Of a stretch of DNA of 39,815 bases, positions 26,437 through 34,317 are shown piece after piece. The stretch comes from Candidatus Moraniibacteriota bacterium (lineage in GTDB: Bacteria > Patescibacteriota > Minisyncoccia > Moranbacterales > UBA2206), in contig JAAXWW010000001.1 in the NCBI GenBank assembly GCA_013334765.1, forward strand, positions 1 through 39,815. The letters run 5' to 3'. The notes beneath the pieces are model-generated. The model made no database searches. It worked only from the letters and a program-made list of their open reading frames with translations, and was not told the origin of the DNA. The position numbers were made by a program, and so were the translations under genes. Numbering within the stretch: the first letter of the stretch is position 1; the number at the start of each line of letters is the position of its first letter.

Positions 26437-27585
26437 ATGAATAAGAAAACAGGGCTGGCCATATTGGGTGTCTTGATGGTCCTTGGCATCGCAACGGTTT
26501 ATAAGATCAAAGGGAATAAGGCTCTGAAAGAGCAGGAAATGGCGGATCAGCAGCTGAAACAGGAAATCGGTCAAATGCTGATGATCGGTTTTCGCGGAAC
26601 GGAAGCTTCTGATGATTCATATGTGGCGAAGACGATAAGGGATCTGGGAGTGGGCGGGGTGATCCTCTTCGACATCGATGTGCCTGGCGGGCGGGCTTTT
26701 CCTAGGAATATTACCGAACCGGAACAGGTCAGGAACCTGGTCGGTGAATTGAAATCATTTTCCGCAACCCCGCTTTTGGTCGCGGTGGATGCCGAAGGTG
26801 GAATGGTGAACAGGCTTAAGGAAAAATACGGTTTCATTCCTGTGCCAAGCGCAAAGGAGTTGGGAGATGCCAATGACGCGGAAAAAACGAAAGAGGTTGC
26901 CAAGGGTCTTTCTGCTGAACTTAAAGATTTAGGGATAAATGTCGATTTTGCGCCGGTGGTGGATGTGAATGTCAATCCGGAAAACCCGGTCATCGGTTCG
27001 ATCGGCAGATCTTTCTCAAGCGACCCGGAAAAAGTAACCCAGCAAGCCGAAGCTTTCCTGGATGGCTTGCATGAAAATGGAGTGCTTTCTTCCCTAAAAC
27101 ACTTTCCAGGACACGGCAGTTCTGCTGCCGACAGCCATCTAGGACTTACGGATGTTACTAGCACCTGGAGCGATAAAGAGTTTATTCCCTATGAAAGGAT
27201 AATCAAGGACGGCAAGGCTGACATGATCATGACTGCTCATATCATGAATATGAATATCGACCCTGACTATCCGGCTACCTTGTCCTCCCGCTATATCCAA
27301 GAAATATTGCGTGACAAATTGGGGTTTCAAGGCGTGGTGGTTTCGGATGATATGCAGATGGGCGCGATTATGGAAAACTACGGATTCAAAGACGCGGTCA
27401 TCCGGGCAGTCAACGCCGGATGCGATATCCTGATCCTTTCCAATAATGGCAAGGAATATAGTGAAGAGATGCCTCAGGAAGCCCGTGATATCATTTTCGA
27501 AGCAGTCAAAAGCGGCGCGATCGCGAGGGAAAAGATTCAGAAGTCATACGGGAGGATAATGGAGATGAAAAGCGAGACGCAGTGA
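26437..27585 (+). CDS. Glycoside hydrolase family 3 (NagZ-like beta-N-acetylhexosaminidase)
   Basis: KHFPGHGSSAADSHLGL, IMTAHIMN, VVVSDDMQMGAI; N-terminal TM anchor. Confidence 0.92.
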   Translation: MNKKTGLAILGVLMVLGIATVYKIKGNKALKEQEMADQQLKQEIGQMLMIGFRGTEASDDSYVAKTIRDLGVGGVILFDIDVPGGRAFPRNITEPEQVRNLVGELKSFSATPLLVAVDAEGGMVNRLKEKYGFIPVPSAKELGDANDAEKTKEVAKGLSAELKDLGINVDFAPVVDVNVNPENPVIGSIGRSFSSDPEKVTQQAEAFLDGLHENGVLSSLKHFPGHGSSAADSHLGLTDVTSTWSDKEFIPYERIIKDGKADMIMTAHIMNMNIDPDYPATLSSRYIQEILRDKLGFQGVVVSDDMQMGAIMENYGFKDAVIRAVNAGCDILILSNNGKEYSEEMPQEARDIIFEAVKSGAIAREKIQKSYGRIMEMKSETQ

Positions 27586-27648: not shown

Positions 27649-28935
27649 GTGGATATATATACGGACAACAATTTTCACAACAAAAAACCGGAAAATCCCT
27701 TTTCTAGGATATCGGGATCCCTACTGCGTTTTCTGGGCGTGTTCTTCTTCTATTTCAAGGGGACTTTTTTCAGCACCAAAAGAAGGCGGGCTGTTTTTGT
27801 CCTCATTATCTCTATTCTATTGGCTTGGCAGCTCGGACCGTACGGAGCACTCAGAAGAAAAAACACGGCACTGATTATCCCGGAACGGGTTTATCATGTT
27901 CCTGAACCATCCGGGCACAATCTGGAAGAGGATGACTATTATACATATATTCCGGGCCCGATATCGATGGATAAGATGAAAAAACAAGGCTGCGTAGCGG
28001 ACGGACTGCTTTCCGGGTATGGAAGCGACACCAAAGAATCAATTGCTATGGTTAACCGTTCCAACTGCATGTATCTTCATAGGGCGCTTGAAACTTGGGC
28101 GGCTCCGCCGGATATGGAAAAGACCAGGGGAATAATGCGCGAAATCGACAGGCCAGGCATAATATACGGCATGTTTATCGCGGAGGCTTTGAAAAAGAAT
28201 GCCAACTATTTCTATCCGGATGAAAATCGCAATTTCGATTTTCGGGATATGTGCTTGCCTAGTTCGGATAATCGCTGGGGTGAGCACACTTGCATTCCCA
28301 GCTTCAAAAGAAAAGAATACCGCAAATACGTGGAATACATAACCAGCCAGGCAATGGATCTTGGAATCCAGAGCTTCCTATTCGGTCAGATCTATTATCA
28401 AGACGATCCGGATGATGCCAATGTCAGCGAGGTATTGAAGCATATGCGAGCATACGCTAAGAAAAAAGGGATCCAAATAGCGATCGGGGCGCAAACCGGG
28501 AGCATCACCAATGAGAAGTATCTGAAGATGTTTGACTATATCGAAGGCGGAGCCGGAATCGGCGATGACGGGACCGTCGAATCAGGTCCATGCTGGAGCC
28601 AGCTTAGCGGGTGCTGGGGGCTTCTTTGGAATGATACGTTCAGGTCCAAGGCCAATAATGTCCTGATTCATCTCGATTGGAGCGGTCTCAAATTCGATGA
28701 CATGAGTTCATTCGCCCGCATGGATAGCAGTGATAGAGCGGCAACGCTCAAGAATCTCTATTCCTATTTCACATCGAAAAACGTCGGGTTCCTGCTGCCG
28801 CTTATGGCAACCGTCAATAAGGACAATGGGGGATGTTTCGGCCACAAGAAGAACTTCTATTCTGCCAGCAATATCCATGGCTGCAAGGATGAAGGAGTCA
28901 TAAACGATTTGCTGAAGCTAAAAGGCAAGAGCTAG
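27649..28935 (+). CDS. Membrane-anchored hypothetical protein, possible TIM-barrel glycosidase-like
   Basis: N-terminal TM, extracellular domain with many Cys and aromatic residues; fold by inference. Confidence 0.55.
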   Translation: MDIYTDNNFHNKKPENPFSRISGSLLRFLGVFFFYFKGTFFSTKRRRAVFVLIISILLAWQLGPYGALRRKNTALIIPERVYHVPEPSGHNLEEDDYYTYIPGPISMDKMKKQGCVADGLLSGYGSDTKESIAMVNRSNCMYLHRALETWAAPPDMEKTRGIMREIDRPGIIYGMFIAEALKKNANYFYPDENRNFDFRDMCLPSSDNRWGEHTCIPSFKRKEYRKYVEYITSQAMDLGIQSFLFGQIYYQDDPDDANVSEVLKHMRAYAKKKGIQIAIGAQTGSITNEKYLKMFDYIEGGAGIGDDGTVESGPCWSQLSGCWGLLWNDTFRSKANNVLIHLDWSGLKFDDMSSFARMDSSDRAATLKNLYSYFTSKNVGFLLPLMATVNKDNGGCFGHKKNFYSASNIHGCKDEGVINDLLKLKGKS

Positions 28936-29022: not shown

Positions 29023-29694
29023 ATGCGCATATTGGTAGTTGAAGATAATAAGGAAATCGCCAGCTTTTTAAAGACTAGTTTGGAGGCGGAGTGCTTCGCT
29101 GTCGATGTCGCTGAAGACGGCGAGCAGGGAACATATCTGGGGCGCATAAACGCTTATGACGCCATAATCCTGGACAATATCCTTCCCAAGAAGCTGGGGA
29201 AGGACGTTTGCATTGCCATAAAGGAAAAAAACAAAGACGTCCCGATCCTGATGCTTTCCGTTAAGGCCGATGTGCCGACCAAGGTGGAAATGCTTAATAT
29301 CGGAGCGGATGACTACATGGCTAAGCCGTTTTCATTCAGTGAGCTGCTGGCTAGGATAAAGGCTATTCTGCGGCGTCCGAAAGGAGCGGTTTCCGAGATA
29401 ATGAGCATTGGTGACATCGCTCTCGATACCACGAAGCATCAGGTGAAAATCAAGGATGAGGAGATCCATCTTACGAGAAAGGAGTTCATGCTTCTCGAGC
29501 TCCTCATGAAGCGGAACGGAGAGGTCGTTTCAAGAGGAGAGATTTCCGAGCATGTGTGGGACATGAACCTTGATCCTTTTTCCAACACCATCGAGGCTCA
29601 CGTGAGAAATTTGAGAAAAAAGCTGAGCCTGGATTGCGACAACAAGGATTTTCTTTTGACGGTTCCCGGCAGAGGATATAGGATAAAGTGCTGA
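29023..29694 (+). CDS. OmpR/PhoB-family response regulator
   Basis: MRILVVEDNKEIASFL, AIILDNILP, KPFSFSELLARI; winged-helix EAHVRNLRKKL...TVPGRGYRI. Confidence 0.95.
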   Translation: MRILVVEDNKEIASFLKTSLEAECFAVDVAEDGEQGTYLGRINAYDAIILDNILPKKLGKDVCIAIKEKNKDVPILMLSVKADVPTKVEMLNIGADDYMAKPFSFSELLARIKAILRRPKGAVSEIMSIGDIALDTTKHQVKIKDEEIHLTRKEFMLLELLMKRNGEVVSRGEISEHVWDMNLDPFSNTIEAHVRNLRKKLSLDCDNKDFLLTVPGRGYRIKC

Positions 29695-29705: not shown

Positions 29706-29749
29706 TTTATTTTTTCTTTATCAAAACTTTATTATTTTTTTATTACAAT
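29706..29749 (+). promoter_or_regulatory. Four tandem TTTAT repeats at 11-bp spacing, with TACAAT -10-like element
   Basis: TTTAT starts at 29706, 29717, 29728, 29739; TACAAT at 29744-29749. Confidence 0.6.
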
Positions 29750-29804: not shown

Positions 29805-29912
29805 ATGAAAAAGGTTATCAAGAAAGTCCTCATGAGCAAGAAGGCAAGAAACGCTTCTGCTGTCGCTTCGTTGGCAGTCGCTGTGTCAGTCGTGAACGCT
29901 CCATGGGGCTAG
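29805..29912 (+). CDS. 35-aa cationic/hydrophobic peptide MKKVIKKVLMSKKARNASAVASLAVAVSVVNAPWG
   Basis: Open frame between regulator box and terminator; leader-like Lys-rich N-terminus, C-terminal NAPWG. Confidence 0.6.
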   Translation: MKKVIKKVLMSKKARNASAVASLAVAVSVVNAPWG

Positions 29913-29958
29913 TTTCCGCCTAGGATTGGGATGTTCATTGTGCGTTTGAGTTATTTAT

Positions 29959-29994
29959 GCCATCCTGGTATTGTATGCCAGGATGGCGTTTGTT
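29959..29994 (+). terminator. Terminator-like hairpin between peptide and kinase
   Basis: GCCATCCTGG-N9-CCAGGATGGC then GTTTGTT. Confidence 0.65.
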
Positions 29995-30011: not shown

Positions 30012-31442
30012 ATGCTATCAAAAATAAAAAACTTGTTGGCGCTTATTTTCGAGCCGAAAAACAAGAGCAATGAGGATTTGGCGCGAAGGGAGTTCATTTT
30101 GAACGTGCTTCTTTCTGGGACGATCATTCTTTCTGTCGTGTGTGCCGTTGTTTCCGTTCTTCTCCTGCACATATATTATCAGGAAGCCCATGCGACTCCT
30201 TTTCCTATGCTGATAGGGACCATCATTTTCTTCGCTGCTCTTTATTATTTATCCAAGACTGGCAAGGCTAACATATCCGCGTATTTTTTTATCGGGCTTT
30301 ATTTGCTGTTTTCCGTATATACTTCTTACCGATGGGGCGCTTATGCTCCTCAGGCTCTCTTGATTTTCGCTCTGACCGTGGTTATGTCAGGGATATTGAT
30401 CAGCACGAGGTTTGCTTTTTTCCTGGTCATTTTTTCTTCGATTTGCATCTTCTCACTGTTTGATCTGCAGTCCAATGGAAGCATCAAGGCAGATCTGTAT
30501 TGGATGAACCCGGGAGGAATCAGCCGGGGGGATATAATAGTGTATGTGGCAACCCTTTTCGTTATTGCTGTCGTTTCATGGCTTTCGAATCGCGAGATTG
30601 AAAAATCCCTTCATCGTGCCAGAAAATCCGAGGCTGAACTCAAAAAAGAGCGTGACATGCTGGAAATCCGCGTTGAAGAAAGGACTGAGGAACTTAAGCG
30701 CGAGCAATATGAGAAGATGAGGCAGATGCATAAGTTCGCTGAATTCGGACGCATTTCTTCCGGGCTGTTCCATGACATCACTAATTATCTGACGGCGCTG
30801 TCTCTCAATCTTGAAATGGCCAAGGAGAATGGGAAAAAAGAAGTCGACAAGACGCGCAGCTATTTGGAACAGGCGCTCAAGACTTCTTCGAAGATGGAAA
30901 ATTTTGTTGAGGCCATACAGAAGCAGTTGAAAAATCAGGACAAGCTGGAGCGTTTTTCCCTGATTCAAGAAATCGAACAATCTATCCAAGTTCTCGGATA
31001 CAGGTCGAAATCTCAGAATGTTGAAATAGCTTTCCCTCACAAGGGGGAGTATTTCCTTGTCGGAAACAATTTCAAGTTCAGCCAGATAATAACCAATGTC
31101 ATTTCCAATGCTATCGATTCTTATTCTGGCATAGGAGAAGGCGTGAATAAGCAGGTGCTTATAAATATAGGAAAAGAGAATGAGGCGATCATGATAAGCG
31201 TTCAGGATCGAGGTTGCGGGATTTCGAAGGAGAATATGGAAAATATATTCACTCCTTTCTTCACTACGAAAAACGGAAATGACGGCACTGGAATCGGGCT
31301 TTCGACCATGCTGGAAATTCTCAAGAATGATTTTTCCGGCGAGATCGACGTCAGGAGCGAGGAGGGCAAAGGCACGACAATGAAACTGTATTTCCCGATA
31401 GCGAAAGGACTTGTGCAATCGCACAAGTCCTGGAATAAATAA
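30012..31442 (+). CDS. Multi-TM sensor histidine kinase
   Basis: About 6 TM helices; GLFHDITNYL H-box, NVISNAIDSY N-box, DRGCGIS, GTGIGLS. Confidence 0.9.
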   Translation: MLSKIKNLLALIFEPKNKSNEDLARREFILNVLLSGTIILSVVCAVVSVLLLHIYYQEAHATPFPMLIGTIIFFAALYYLSKTGKANISAYFFIGLYLLFSVYTSYRWGAYAPQALLIFALTVVMSGILISTRFAFFLVIFSSICIFSLFDLQSNGSIKADLYWMNPGGISRGDIIVYVATLFVIAVVSWLSNREIEKSLHRARKSEAELKKERDMLEIRVEERTEELKREQYEKMRQMHKFAEFGRISSGLFHDITNYLTALSLNLEMAKENGKKEVDKTRSYLEQALKTSSKMENFVEAIQKQLKNQDKLERFSLIQEIEQSIQVLGYRSKSQNVEIAFPHKGEYFLVGNNFKFSQIITNVISNAIDSYSGIGEGVNKQVLINIGKENEAIMISVQDRGCGISKENMENIFTPFFTTKNGNDGTGIGLSTMLEILKNDFSGEIDVRSEEGKGTTMKLYFPIAKGLVQSHKSWNK

Positions 31443-31455
31443 AAAAAATATTCGA

Positions 31456-33426
31456 ATGAAAAGAAAAACAGACTCTGCCATAAGGCGCGGCTTGATTTTT
31501 CTGTCCAGGGAACAGCGCGCGAATGGCAGTTTCTTCAGCTTGACCTCTGAAAAGAAGAATAATCTGGAAAATGGGACACACCACCGGTCGACATTCCCCG
31601 CCAGCTTGATCCTGTCTTGCCTTAGCGGATTGGCTGATTTCAAAGAAGTTGGAATCGTCCGCAAGAAGGCGGCAGGATTTCTGCTTGGACAGAAAAGCGA
31701 TTTCTGGTCTTTTAATTATTGGGAACGCGGTTCTTCGGATGAAAAGGAGGCTCCTTATCCGGATGATCTGGATGACACTTTTTCGGCGCTTTTTGCCATC
31801 CATGGGTATGATCAGAAGATCATAAAAGGCCGCGATATGGGCAAGATAGTCACTTTGCTGACGGCGACCGAGAAAAAGGAAGGCGGTCCTTATGCTACTT
31901 GGCTTGTCCCGAGGAATGCTGATAAGAAGTGGAGAGATATCGATTTGGCCGTTAATAGCAATGTCGCTTCTTTTCTGGCTAGTCAGGATGTGCATCTGGA
32001 TAGCATGGATTCGCTGGTCGAATCAGCTGTCAGGAAAAACGAATTCATTTCGCCATATTATTATTCTCAGCATTCGGTTATTTATTTCATTTCCAGATTC
32101 TATAAAGGGAAATACGTTAAAAAAATAGTAGACGATATTATTTCAAAAAAGCGCAGAGATGGCGGATGGGGGAATGTCCTTGAGACCGCTTTTTGCGTTT
32201 CCGCTCTTTTTAATTTCGGATGCGATTTGGAAATCGTCGAAGCAAGCATCGCATATCTTTTGAAAAATGAAAGCAAATGGAAGAAGGCCTATCCTTTCAT
32301 CATTGAATTAGTGAAAGGCGGAAATAATCACTATTCCGGCGCTCCAGCTCTGACAGCGGCCTTTGTCCTGGAGGCGCTTGGAAAAGCGAGAAGCAGCAGG
32401 ATCAGGAATGATTCTTTCAAGTCAGCTAATAGAAACAGCGAAACGAAAAGGGAAATGATCCATGAGAGGATCATAAGGAAGACGACTGATATTTTTCCGC
32501 AAAGCAAGGGATGTGCCTATAGCGCCCTTTCCAAACAAGCAAAAAAAATGAGCGAATCCTATTATGCTAAGAATATAACCCTTCTTCCTTATGAATTTCA
32601 TAAATCGCTAGACATTGCGATATCTTCTCGCATTGGGTCTTATGCAATTGAAGAATTCGGAGTTGCCAATCTTTTAGGCTGGATCGCTTATTCTGCTTAT
32701 GATGATTTTTATGATGGAGAAGGAAAAGCGTCTGAATTGCCTGCAGCTAATCTTTGCTTGCTTGAGCTGACGGCTATTTTCATGAAACATGCTGCTGGTA
32801 ACAAGGATTTTCTCTCCCTTTTCCATGAGATAATGATTTCGATAGAGGACGCTAATTTGTGGGAAATGGAAAACTGCAGAGCCTCTTTGTCTGGAAACGG
32901 TTTTCATTTGCCAAAAAGGCTTCCGGCCTATTCTGATTATTCGAGGTTGGCTGATCGCTCCATGGGTCATGCGCTTGGTCCGATTGCGATCGCTTCCATG
33001 CTCGGTTTCAAGAAAAGATCATCGGCAATGAACGGAATCGTAGGGATGTTCCGTTGCTATATAATAGCCAAGCAGCTTAATGACGACGCGCATGACTGGG
33101 AAGAGGATATCAGAAACGGGAGCTTGACGCCGGTAGTCTGCATGATTTTGAAGATTTGGCGCAAAAAAAATAAAAACAGAACGGAAATAAATCTCAGCAA
33201 AGACATCAGGACTTTCCAGGAGATTTTTTGGTATCAGGTTATCGGAATTGTTTGTAAGGACATTCTTTCCTATGCGGCTAAGGCCCGGGAACAATTGGGT
33301 CGCCTGGATATGGTGGAAAATAAGGATTTTTTTGATCGTATGATTGAAAAAGAGGAAAATTCGGCAAAAAAGGCAATCGAGGAGCGGAGCAACACTTTGG
33401 ATTTCATCAGATCTTTCGATAGCTGA
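31456..33426 (+). CDS. Terpenoid-cyclase (toroid) plus isoprenoid-synthase-like two-domain protein
   Basis: N-terminal DLDD (31765-31776) in an alpha-toroid-like region; C-terminal DDFYD (32701-32715) and QLNDDAHDWEED (33073-33108). Confidence 0.7.
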   Translation: MKRKTDSAIRRGLIFLSREQRANGSFFSLTSEKKNNLENGTHHRSTFPASLILSCLSGLADFKEVGIVRKKAAGFLLGQKSDFWSFNYWERGSSDEKEAPYPDDLDDTFSALFAIHGYDQKIIKGRDMGKIVTLLTATEKKEGGPYATWLVPRNADKKWRDIDLAVNSNVASFLASQDVHLDSMDSLVESAVRKNEFISPYYYSQHSVIYFISRFYKGKYVKKIVDDIISKKRRDGGWGNVLETAFCVSALFNFGCDLEIVEASIAYLLKNESKWKKAYPFIIELVKGGNNHYSGAPALTAAFVLEALGKARSSRIRNDSFKSANRNSETKREMIHERIIRKTTDIFPQSKGCAYSALSKQAKKMSESYYAKNITLLPYEFHKSLDIAISSRIGSYAIEEFGVANLLGWIAYSAYDDFYDGEGKASELPAANLCLLELTAIFMKHAAGNKDFLSLFHEIMISIEDANLWEMENCRASLSGNGFHLPKRLPAYSDYSRLADRSMGHALGPIAIASMLGFKKRSSAMNGIVGMFRCYIIAKQLNDDAHDWEEDIRNGSLTPVVCMILKIWRKKNKNRTEINLSKDIRTFQEIFWYQVIGIVCKDILSYAAKAREQLGRLDMVENKDFFDRMIEKEENSAKKAIEERSNTLDFIRSFDS

Positions 33427-33753: not shown

Positions 33754-34317
33754 ATGAATTTGCGAATGCGTATCATTAGCACGGGATCCGCTCTTATGAC
33801 ACTGGTTGCCATCCTGATCGTTTCAAGCATGGTGGCAGTAAAAGAAGCTGCGGCTAAGGAGTCTAATGAAATAAAAATAAAGTTCGAAGCCGAGAATGAC
33901 AGGATAATGCTTTCGGAGTCCGAAGATAGTAATTCCTTGCCTTTGTCTGCGGACGAGGGTCAGGAAGGTGACTCAGTGGAAGATGAACATTCCCAGAAAA
34001 ACAACAAGACAGAGCACAGCAATATTCCTAGCGGTCGATTCGTCATCAATGTTTCCGCATATACGGCTGCTGCTGATGAATGTGGAAAAAGTGACGGAAT
34101 AACTGCTTCAGGAGCTCGCGTGAAGGAGAACGAGACTATCGCATGCCCTAGGCAGTTCCCTTTCGGAACCAAATTGTTTATCGAAGGTTTCGGAACATAT
34201 ATCTGTCAGGATCGCGGAGGTGCGATCAAGGGAAACAAGGTTGACATGTATATGAAAACGAAAGCTCAGGCTTTCGCTTTCGGAAGACGCAATCTGTTGG
34301 CCCATGTAGTCGAATAG
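33754..34317 (+). CDS. Secreted 3D-domain (RlpA/MltA-like barrel) protein
   Basis: Signal/TM N-terminus; VSAYT...TASGARVKENETIACPRQFPFGTKLFIEGFGTYICQDRGGAIKGNKVDMYM. Confidence 0.85.
   Translation: MNLRMRIISTGSALMTLVAILIVSSMVAVKEAAAKESNEIKIKFEAENDRIMLSESEDSNSLPLSADEGQEGDSVEDEHSQKNNKTEHSNIPSGRFVINVSAYTAAADECGKSDGITASGARVKENETIACPRQFPFGTKLFIEGFGTYICQDRGGAIKGNKVDMYMKTKAQAFAFGRRNLLAHVVE

Follow-up and report, generated by a model that had tools for sequence, protein, structure and literature searches.

The ComQ/ComX and PalQ/PalX systems each pair an isoprenyl-type enzyme with a Trp-containing peptide and a histidine kinase (PMC4008528, PMC10853753), and a 2014 census recorded ComQXPA-like loci in Firmicutes only (PMC4008528). 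All characterized trans-IDS-like peptide prenyltransferases act on Trp (PMC13290415). As far as the description in the same source goes, ChrPC and NctPC also act on a peptide Trp, the P domain of ChrPC is trans-IDS-like, and cyclization is reported to follow transfer (PMC13290415). For Patescibacteria, or the candidate phyla radiation (CPR), we found no report of peptide quorum sensing in the open-access literature, ComX/ComQ included. These bacteria are mostly uncultured, have tiny genomes and often depend on a host.

We analyzed a 39,815-nucleotide stretch of DNA from a Candidatus Moraniibacteriota bacterium, referred to as a whole as the window, in which a first-pass annotation had proposed a 35-aa peptide gene at 29805-29912. 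Exactly this frame is present, and it lies in a row of four genes, all on the forward strand, in the order OmpR-type response regulator (RR), peptide, six-helix histidine kinase (HK) and fused enzyme:

29023..29694, + strand: OmpR/PhoB-type response regulator (Response_reg E 2e-23, Trans_reg_C E 2e-25), located 5' of the peptide in most loci
29805..29912, + strand: precursor peptide gene, 35 aa (ORF, homologues, codon usage, shuffle test)
30012..31442, + strand: histidine kinase with six membrane-length helices (HATPase_c E 5e-22; predicted model with pLDDT 88.7; two alignments)
31456..33426, + strand: fused enzyme with an N-terminal class II terpene-cyclase-like and a C-terminal class I prenyltransferase-like domain (predicted model, AsDMS profile, fold matches)

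The first-pass annotation overlooked the RR, HK and terpene-cyclase/prenyltransferase neighbors, and it is these genes that lend the peptide its meaning. We propose that the four genes probably encode a pheromone circuit, in which the fused enzyme modifies the peptide to carry a terpene on Trp and the kinase senses it together with the OmpR-type RR. No description of a CPR system of this kind was found in the open-access literature; a prior account may exist elsewhere.

The peptide gene and its conservation

The frame runs from ATG at 29805 to TAG at 29910-29912, encodes the 35-aa peptide MKKVIKKVLMSKKARNASAVASLAVAVSVVNAPWG and occurs once in the 0.97-Mb genome. It contains no Cys and a single Trp codon, the TGG that had been noted at 29904-29906. 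Two short elements recur in the family:

29829..29849, + strand: leader motif LMSKKAR (family consensus LTxKxAR), proposed enzyme recognition site; Arg in 58/58 loci
29901..29906, + strand: Pro-Trp of the core, with Trp as the proposed acceptor; Trp invariant in the peptide alignment, Pro before Trp in 48/58

A homologous peptide of 33-57 aa is encoded in the gap 5' of the kinase in 58 loci, the window counted. In the 57 further loci the peptide keeps the same orientation and is placed between RR and HK or immediately 5' of HK. One of these (L038) has a peptide that overlaps the called RR end, and in several the RR sits elsewhere or on the opposite strand with the peptide still directly 5' of the kinase. 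The family shares the layout M-(K/N)-x-(hydrophobic)2-x2-(I/V)-L-T-(D/N/S)-K-x-A-R, usually followed by a variable stretch of 17-19 residues, (P)W and a tail of 1-7 residues. Pfam and NCBIfam contain no model that covers any member, and the ComX model PF05952 gave zero matches in the window's own genome or among 54 peptides.

Our first peptide listing demanded a Trp near the end; a second search used the leader motif alone, and Trp was present in 50 of the 50 peptides found in this way. The first-pass annotation had suggested looking for synonymous-biased substitution in relatives. Across the family, each of the six Arg codons occurs at the invariant leader Arg and each of the four Pro codons at the Pro preceding Trp, which shows that selection acts on the protein. 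An ORF of the form L-x5-R ... W is found in 56 of 57 loci, compared with 1.2% of dinucleotide shuffles. Relatives with a disrupted frame next to intact flanking genes were also looked for, with the opposite outcome, as only L017, a locus with an assembled gap, lacks the start codon and keeps the remainder of the frame. The peptide ORF is far beyond chance expectation and the gene is confirmed as real; a chance ORF is refuted.

The peptide had also been described as having either a leader/core or a signal-peptide layout. The leader/core part stands, with an important C-terminal Trp, whereas the signal-peptide part does not, as the Ala/Val stretch is only local: hydropathy between Arg and Trp is at most 0.5 in 34 of 58 loci, and this segment is charged or polar in many. 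An attenuation leader, a signal or membrane peptide, or a chance ORF would fit the Lys-rich start, the hydrophobic middle and the downstream terminator-like hairpin seen in the window, but we regard this group of explanations as very improbable. A signal or membrane peptide was rejected because the hydrophobic segment is unconserved across the family, and a Trp attenuation leader because of the one Trp codon, the lack of trp genes and the conservation at the protein level. The terminator-like hairpin occurs in just 7 of 58 loci, and cross-lineage conservation of the protein together with a chance rate of 1.2% per locus argues against the whole group.

Distribution and neighborhood of the module

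A scan with the enzyme alignment against 85,462 species genomes, revealed 67 enzyme loci. The scan used two conserved peptide patterns and may therefore have missed distant relatives elsewhere. All titles that name a lineage belong to Patescibacteria/CPR, while several read just "bacterium". The lineages are Moranii-, Levyi-, Shapiro-, Davies-, Roizman-, Colwell-, Nomura-, Taylor-, Kaiser-, Doudna-, Uhr-, Magasanik-, Falkow-, Berkel-, Dojka- and Saccharibacteria, and others. RR, HK and enzyme are co-stranded in most of the 67 loci. Among sampled Patescibacteria genomes the enzyme occurs in 19 of 380 (about 5%), and among 94 related genomes in five, counting the window's own. Three of the other four show the order RR - gap - HK - enzyme, with the gap peptides MKKKIIKKILMSKKTRKAVALSAFVMSIVSVANPWTDVA, MKKKIIKKILTDKKMRKAATLSSFALVVVPGSPWA and MDKLIKEILTKKATRNSAALVALIAAVMVAGSPWNAPQI; in the fourth, the locus is broken off by the contig end. 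A complete RR-peptide-HK-enzyme module with the peptide MKKIIKEILTNKAVRNSSALMALIVTVMGVGVPWVDK was also found on a held-out contig (L148, IMG/VR UViG_3300025012_001675). This contig is filed as viral; the module on it is either mobile or part of a CPR contig filed in the wrong place. No homologues of the class I domain were found on plasmids.

Among the neighbors of the loci, no gene beyond RR, HK and enzyme is conserved, and this includes export, leader-peptidase and immunity genes. In the window, the region just 3' of the enzyme (33754-34317) encodes a secreted-like protein that contains a 3D domain (PF06725); upstream of the module, a GH3-family glycosidase (26437-27585) is followed by a 428-aa protein without a Pfam match (27649-28935).

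The modified peptide could alternatively be an antimicrobial or lytic RiPP directed against neighbors or host cells, with the two-component pair sensing another cue or regulating itself. The peptides of the window and of the other Moraniibacteriota are cationic and hydrophobic, antimicrobial activity is known for some lipopeptides, and ABC transporter-like neighbors are present at some loci. We nevertheless consider this quite unlikely, given that many family peptides are neither cationic nor hydrophobic, that neither immunity nor dedicated export genes are conserved and that the constant partner of the peptide is a kinase-regulator pair.

The kinase start was set by alignment to ATG 30012, the ORF itself opening at 29931. 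The protein also has a weak HisKA (PF00512) match, and PF07730, the ComP-type model, does not match the kinase of the window. In a fold search, kinase cores alone were matched and nothing on the sensor. Conservation is 0.32 in the sensor half compared with 0.39 in the kinase half; a less conserved sensor half is expected for a receptor of a variable ligand, the difference being modest.

A predicted fusion of terpene cyclase and prenyltransferase

No Pfam or NCBIfam model scores above cut-off with the 656-aa enzyme, and none of 60 family enzymes is hit by PF00348 at E 0.01 or better. Three motifs were located in the 656-aa enzyme:

31765..31776, + strand: DLDD (DxDD) motif, residues 104-107; kept in 49/60 members, with the last position varying between D, T, S and C
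32701..32715, + strand: first Asp-rich motif DDFYD, residues 416-420 (family alignment)
33073..33108, + strand: QLNDDAHDWEED with the second Asp-rich motif, residues 540-551; Q540, D543, D544, D547 and D551 invariant in 60

The structure predicted from 60 sequences has a pLDDT of 94.7. Enzyme profile positions 28-309 resemble the TCbeta domain of AsDMS (profile E 1e-20; Foldseek E 1e-8), and PDDLDDT of the window aligns with PDDLDTT of AsDMS. The C-terminal half is predicted to adopt a class I polyprenyl-synthase fold, matching 3aqb (TM 0.70 by target length), and Ord1, a Trp farnesyltransferase (PMC13290415), is also among the fold matches. Little or no variation is seen in the two Asp-rich motifs, or in the Gln located three residues ahead of the second. 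A Gln upstream of the second Asp-rich motif is part of Trp recognition (PMC13290415), but Q540 does not discriminate Trp prenyltransferases, since the canonical synthases in L014 and L015 carry such a Gln too.

DxDD is absent from eleven of the 60 members, a difference that takes two or more independent changes on the tree. These eleven retain E-GGPY...N, the class I site and the Trp peptide, which suggests that Trp modification is the core activity and cyclization an added step. Judged by these motifs, we take the class I domain to be what would modify Trp, with terpene cyclization as an extra in most members, the window's probably among them. As ten members lack the Pro before Trp and eleven lack DxDD, the exact chemistry must vary. 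E139, GPY144-146 and N167 (window 31870-31893 and 31954-31956) are invariant even in short DxDD-less enzymes and perhaps contribute to peptide or diphosphate binding.

These motifs also bear on another explanation, namely that the enzyme releases a free terpenoid that is sensed by the kinase while the peptide serves as a small regulator or as a docking partner of kinase or enzyme. Like makers of free terpenes, the enzyme combines class II (DxDD) and class I motifs, and its cyclase relative AsDMS yields free drimenol. Such a scheme leaves the near-invariant Trp and the short variable tail unexplained, and the DxDD-less enzymes nevertheless retain peptide and Trp; we consider it unlikely.

A prenyl donor for modification of the peptide could be supplied from nearby. 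A canonical polyprenyl synthase adjoins the module in 9 of 67 loci, where by our own estimate chance would place about one in 67 flanks of such size, assuming one synthase gene per genome of about 1 Mb. In five of them (L015, L025, L033, L061, L077) the synthase start overlaps the enzyme stop, and the four of the nine checked against Pfam gave E 1e-49 to 1e-59. The genome of the window contains one PF00348 and one PF01255 gene, adjacent to each other.

Promoter and RNA elements around the peptide gene

Both the regulator-box-like promoter and the terminator-like hairpin that the first-pass annotation placed around the peptide gene were found:

29716..29731, + strand: 11-bp direct repeat CTTTA-N6-CTTTA, candidate RR binding site; exact repeat at 11-bp spacing in 13 loci compared with 0-1 at other spacings
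29744..29749, + strand: candidate -10 element TACAAT, 12 nt after the boxes; the 11-12 nt geometry also in L012, L029, L046, L051, L052 and L054
29757..29776, + strand: GGTCGA element in a small inverted repeat (GAAC...GTTC), weak in the window and strong in several relatives
29957..29989, + strand: terminator-like hairpin with 15 pairs (folding z -6.4), one in just 7/58 loci

PhoB-family regulators have 11-bp direct repeats as their binding sites. Ahead of the peptide genes, pairs of identical 6-mers were counted 66 times at 11 bp and 31 times at 22 bp, compared with 0-11 times at other tested spacings, and the recurring unit is CTT(T/G/A)A. Repeats of the PhoB type at this position suggest that the peptide promoter is likely autoregulated by the RR of the module. 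When we scanned the genome, without the last 883 bases of contig C9, for the exact boxes, 4 promoter-like sites were found compared with 2-3 at control spacings. A second CTTTA-N6-CTTTA promoter-like site lies outside the window at C1:162104 (L096 about 2104), 5' of genes for a DKNYY-family secreted-like protein and a CHAP/CARDB protein, and is a candidate further RR target. Several lineages, chiefly from Microgenomates and Saccharibacteria, have the peptide directly after the RR, with a strong Shine-Dalgarno-like run ahead of it instead.

GGTCG occurs in 27 of 58 leaders compared with 2.8 expected. GGTCGA is located 25-60 nt 5' of the start codon, often in a hairpin loop whose arms differ by lineage, and such hairpins were found in 10 leaders compared with 0 for control motifs. 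In the window, the GGTCGA hairpin is no more stable than shuffles (z 0.69). An Rfam search around the peptide gave a sub-threshold match at most (E 0.12). The hairpin at 29957-29989 would, in the window, favor the peptide over the kinase transcript.

Proposed signaling circuit

In the circuit that we consider probable, the downstream fused enzyme would recognize the 35-aa precursor via the LTxKxAR leader, and its class I domain would prenylate the Trp in the C-terminal PW core, using a C10-C20 diphosphate as donor. Where a member has an intact DxDD, as in the window, the N-terminal class II domain would cyclize the terpene before or after transfer. Cyclization before transfer is possible because AsDMS cyclizes free farnesyl diphosphate (PMC12365925). 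The leader would then be removed and a short lipidated C-terminal peptide would leave the cell. The six-helix kinase may sense this exported peptide and phosphorylate the OmpR-type RR, which would bind the 11-bp direct repeats at the peptide promoter; we infer that this feedback is positive and results in autoinduction.

Several lines of evidence favor this circuit. Peptide, RR, HK and enzyme occur together in many CPR lineages, with the same module on the held-out contig. Trp is present in 50/50 leader-motif peptides, and Arg and Pro are kept through synonymous codons. The enzyme combines a predicted class I fold and both Asp-rich motifs with a class II domain related to drimenol synthase, polyprenyl synthase genes exist in the host and adjoin the module in 9/67 loci, and the 11-bp repeats are located at the peptide promoter. 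Characterized trans-IDS-like peptide prenyltransferases act on Trp, and ComQ/ComX and PalQ/PalX provide precedents. Against it we counted the lack of a match to the ComQ (PF00348) and ComX models, the lack of a conserved export or leader-peptidase gene, the deviations in PW and DxDD and the modest gap in conservation between sensor and kinase halves.

In its widest form, the proposal is that quorum sensing is widespread in Patescibacteria and uses, as autoinducer, a short peptide with a cyclized (drimane- or labdane-like) terpene on Trp; a single cyclase-prenyltransferase would make this peptide, which would control its own promoter. For this version we see the chances as evenly balanced. We found a signal with a cyclized terpene on Trp for no other cell-cell signaling system in the open-access literature. 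If correct, Patescibacteria coordinate their behavior through a dedicated, self-regulated peptide signal whose chemistry is new, and the compact enzymes that terpenylate the peptides form a family directly testable in E. coli.

Comparison with known systems

The enzyme shares with class II terpene cyclases a DxDD-type motif in its TCbeta domain, present in 49/60 members. AsDMS (HAD-TCbeta) is its homologue over this domain by profile (E 1e-20) and fold, including the DxD(D/T) region, but there the TCbeta domain is fused to a HAD phosphatase and not to a class I prenyltransferase-like domain. With the trans-IDS-like Trp prenyltransferases ComQ, PalQ and the ChrPC P domain, the enzyme shares the isoprenoid-synthase fold, as predicted, and the DDxxD first Asp-rich motif. 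ChrPC and NctPC, with which the comparison is by description only, also join prenyltransferase and terpene-cyclase domains in one enzyme (PMC13290415), as is predicted here. As far as that description extends, the module differs from them in its N-terminal cyclase domain, its short LTxKxAR precursor and its obligate two-component linkage.

AgrBDCA requires the AgrB peptidase and a thiolactone or lactone peptide, whereas the peptide of the module has no Cys and its loci no conserved AgrB-like gene. PalQ/PalX/PalP of Paenibacillus alvei resembles the module in having a Trp prenyltransferase of the isoprenoid-synthase superfamily, a precursor peptide and a histidine kinase (PMC10853753). PalX, however, has an NHLP leader and a strictly C-terminal Trp, while the peptide described here has a 14-residue LTxKxAR leader, a Trp that is never the last residue and no Pfam match; PalQ, furthermore, is without the cyclase domain of our enzyme.

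ComQXPA, like the module, clusters an isoprenyl-synthase-fold enzyme, a short precursor with Trp near the C-terminus, a polytopic HK and an RR (PMC4008528), and its Trp, within about 5-10 residues of the C-terminus, is matched by the 1-7 residues that follow Trp in the module peptides. ComQXPA comes from Firmicutes and has a ComA-type (LuxR/NarL) RR and a kinase of the ComP type, which carries PF07730 and has many membrane helices, whereas the module comes from Patescibacteria and has an OmpR-type RR (Trans_reg_C) and a kinase with six membrane-length helices that lacks PF07730. The order RR-peptide-HK-enzyme and the fusion of the enzyme to a class II terpene-cyclase domain are also unlike ComQXPA. 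Because the ComX and PF00348 models, kinase type, RR type and gene order all fail to agree, the module is not a ComQXPA member, yet it would work like ComQXPA and PalQXP.
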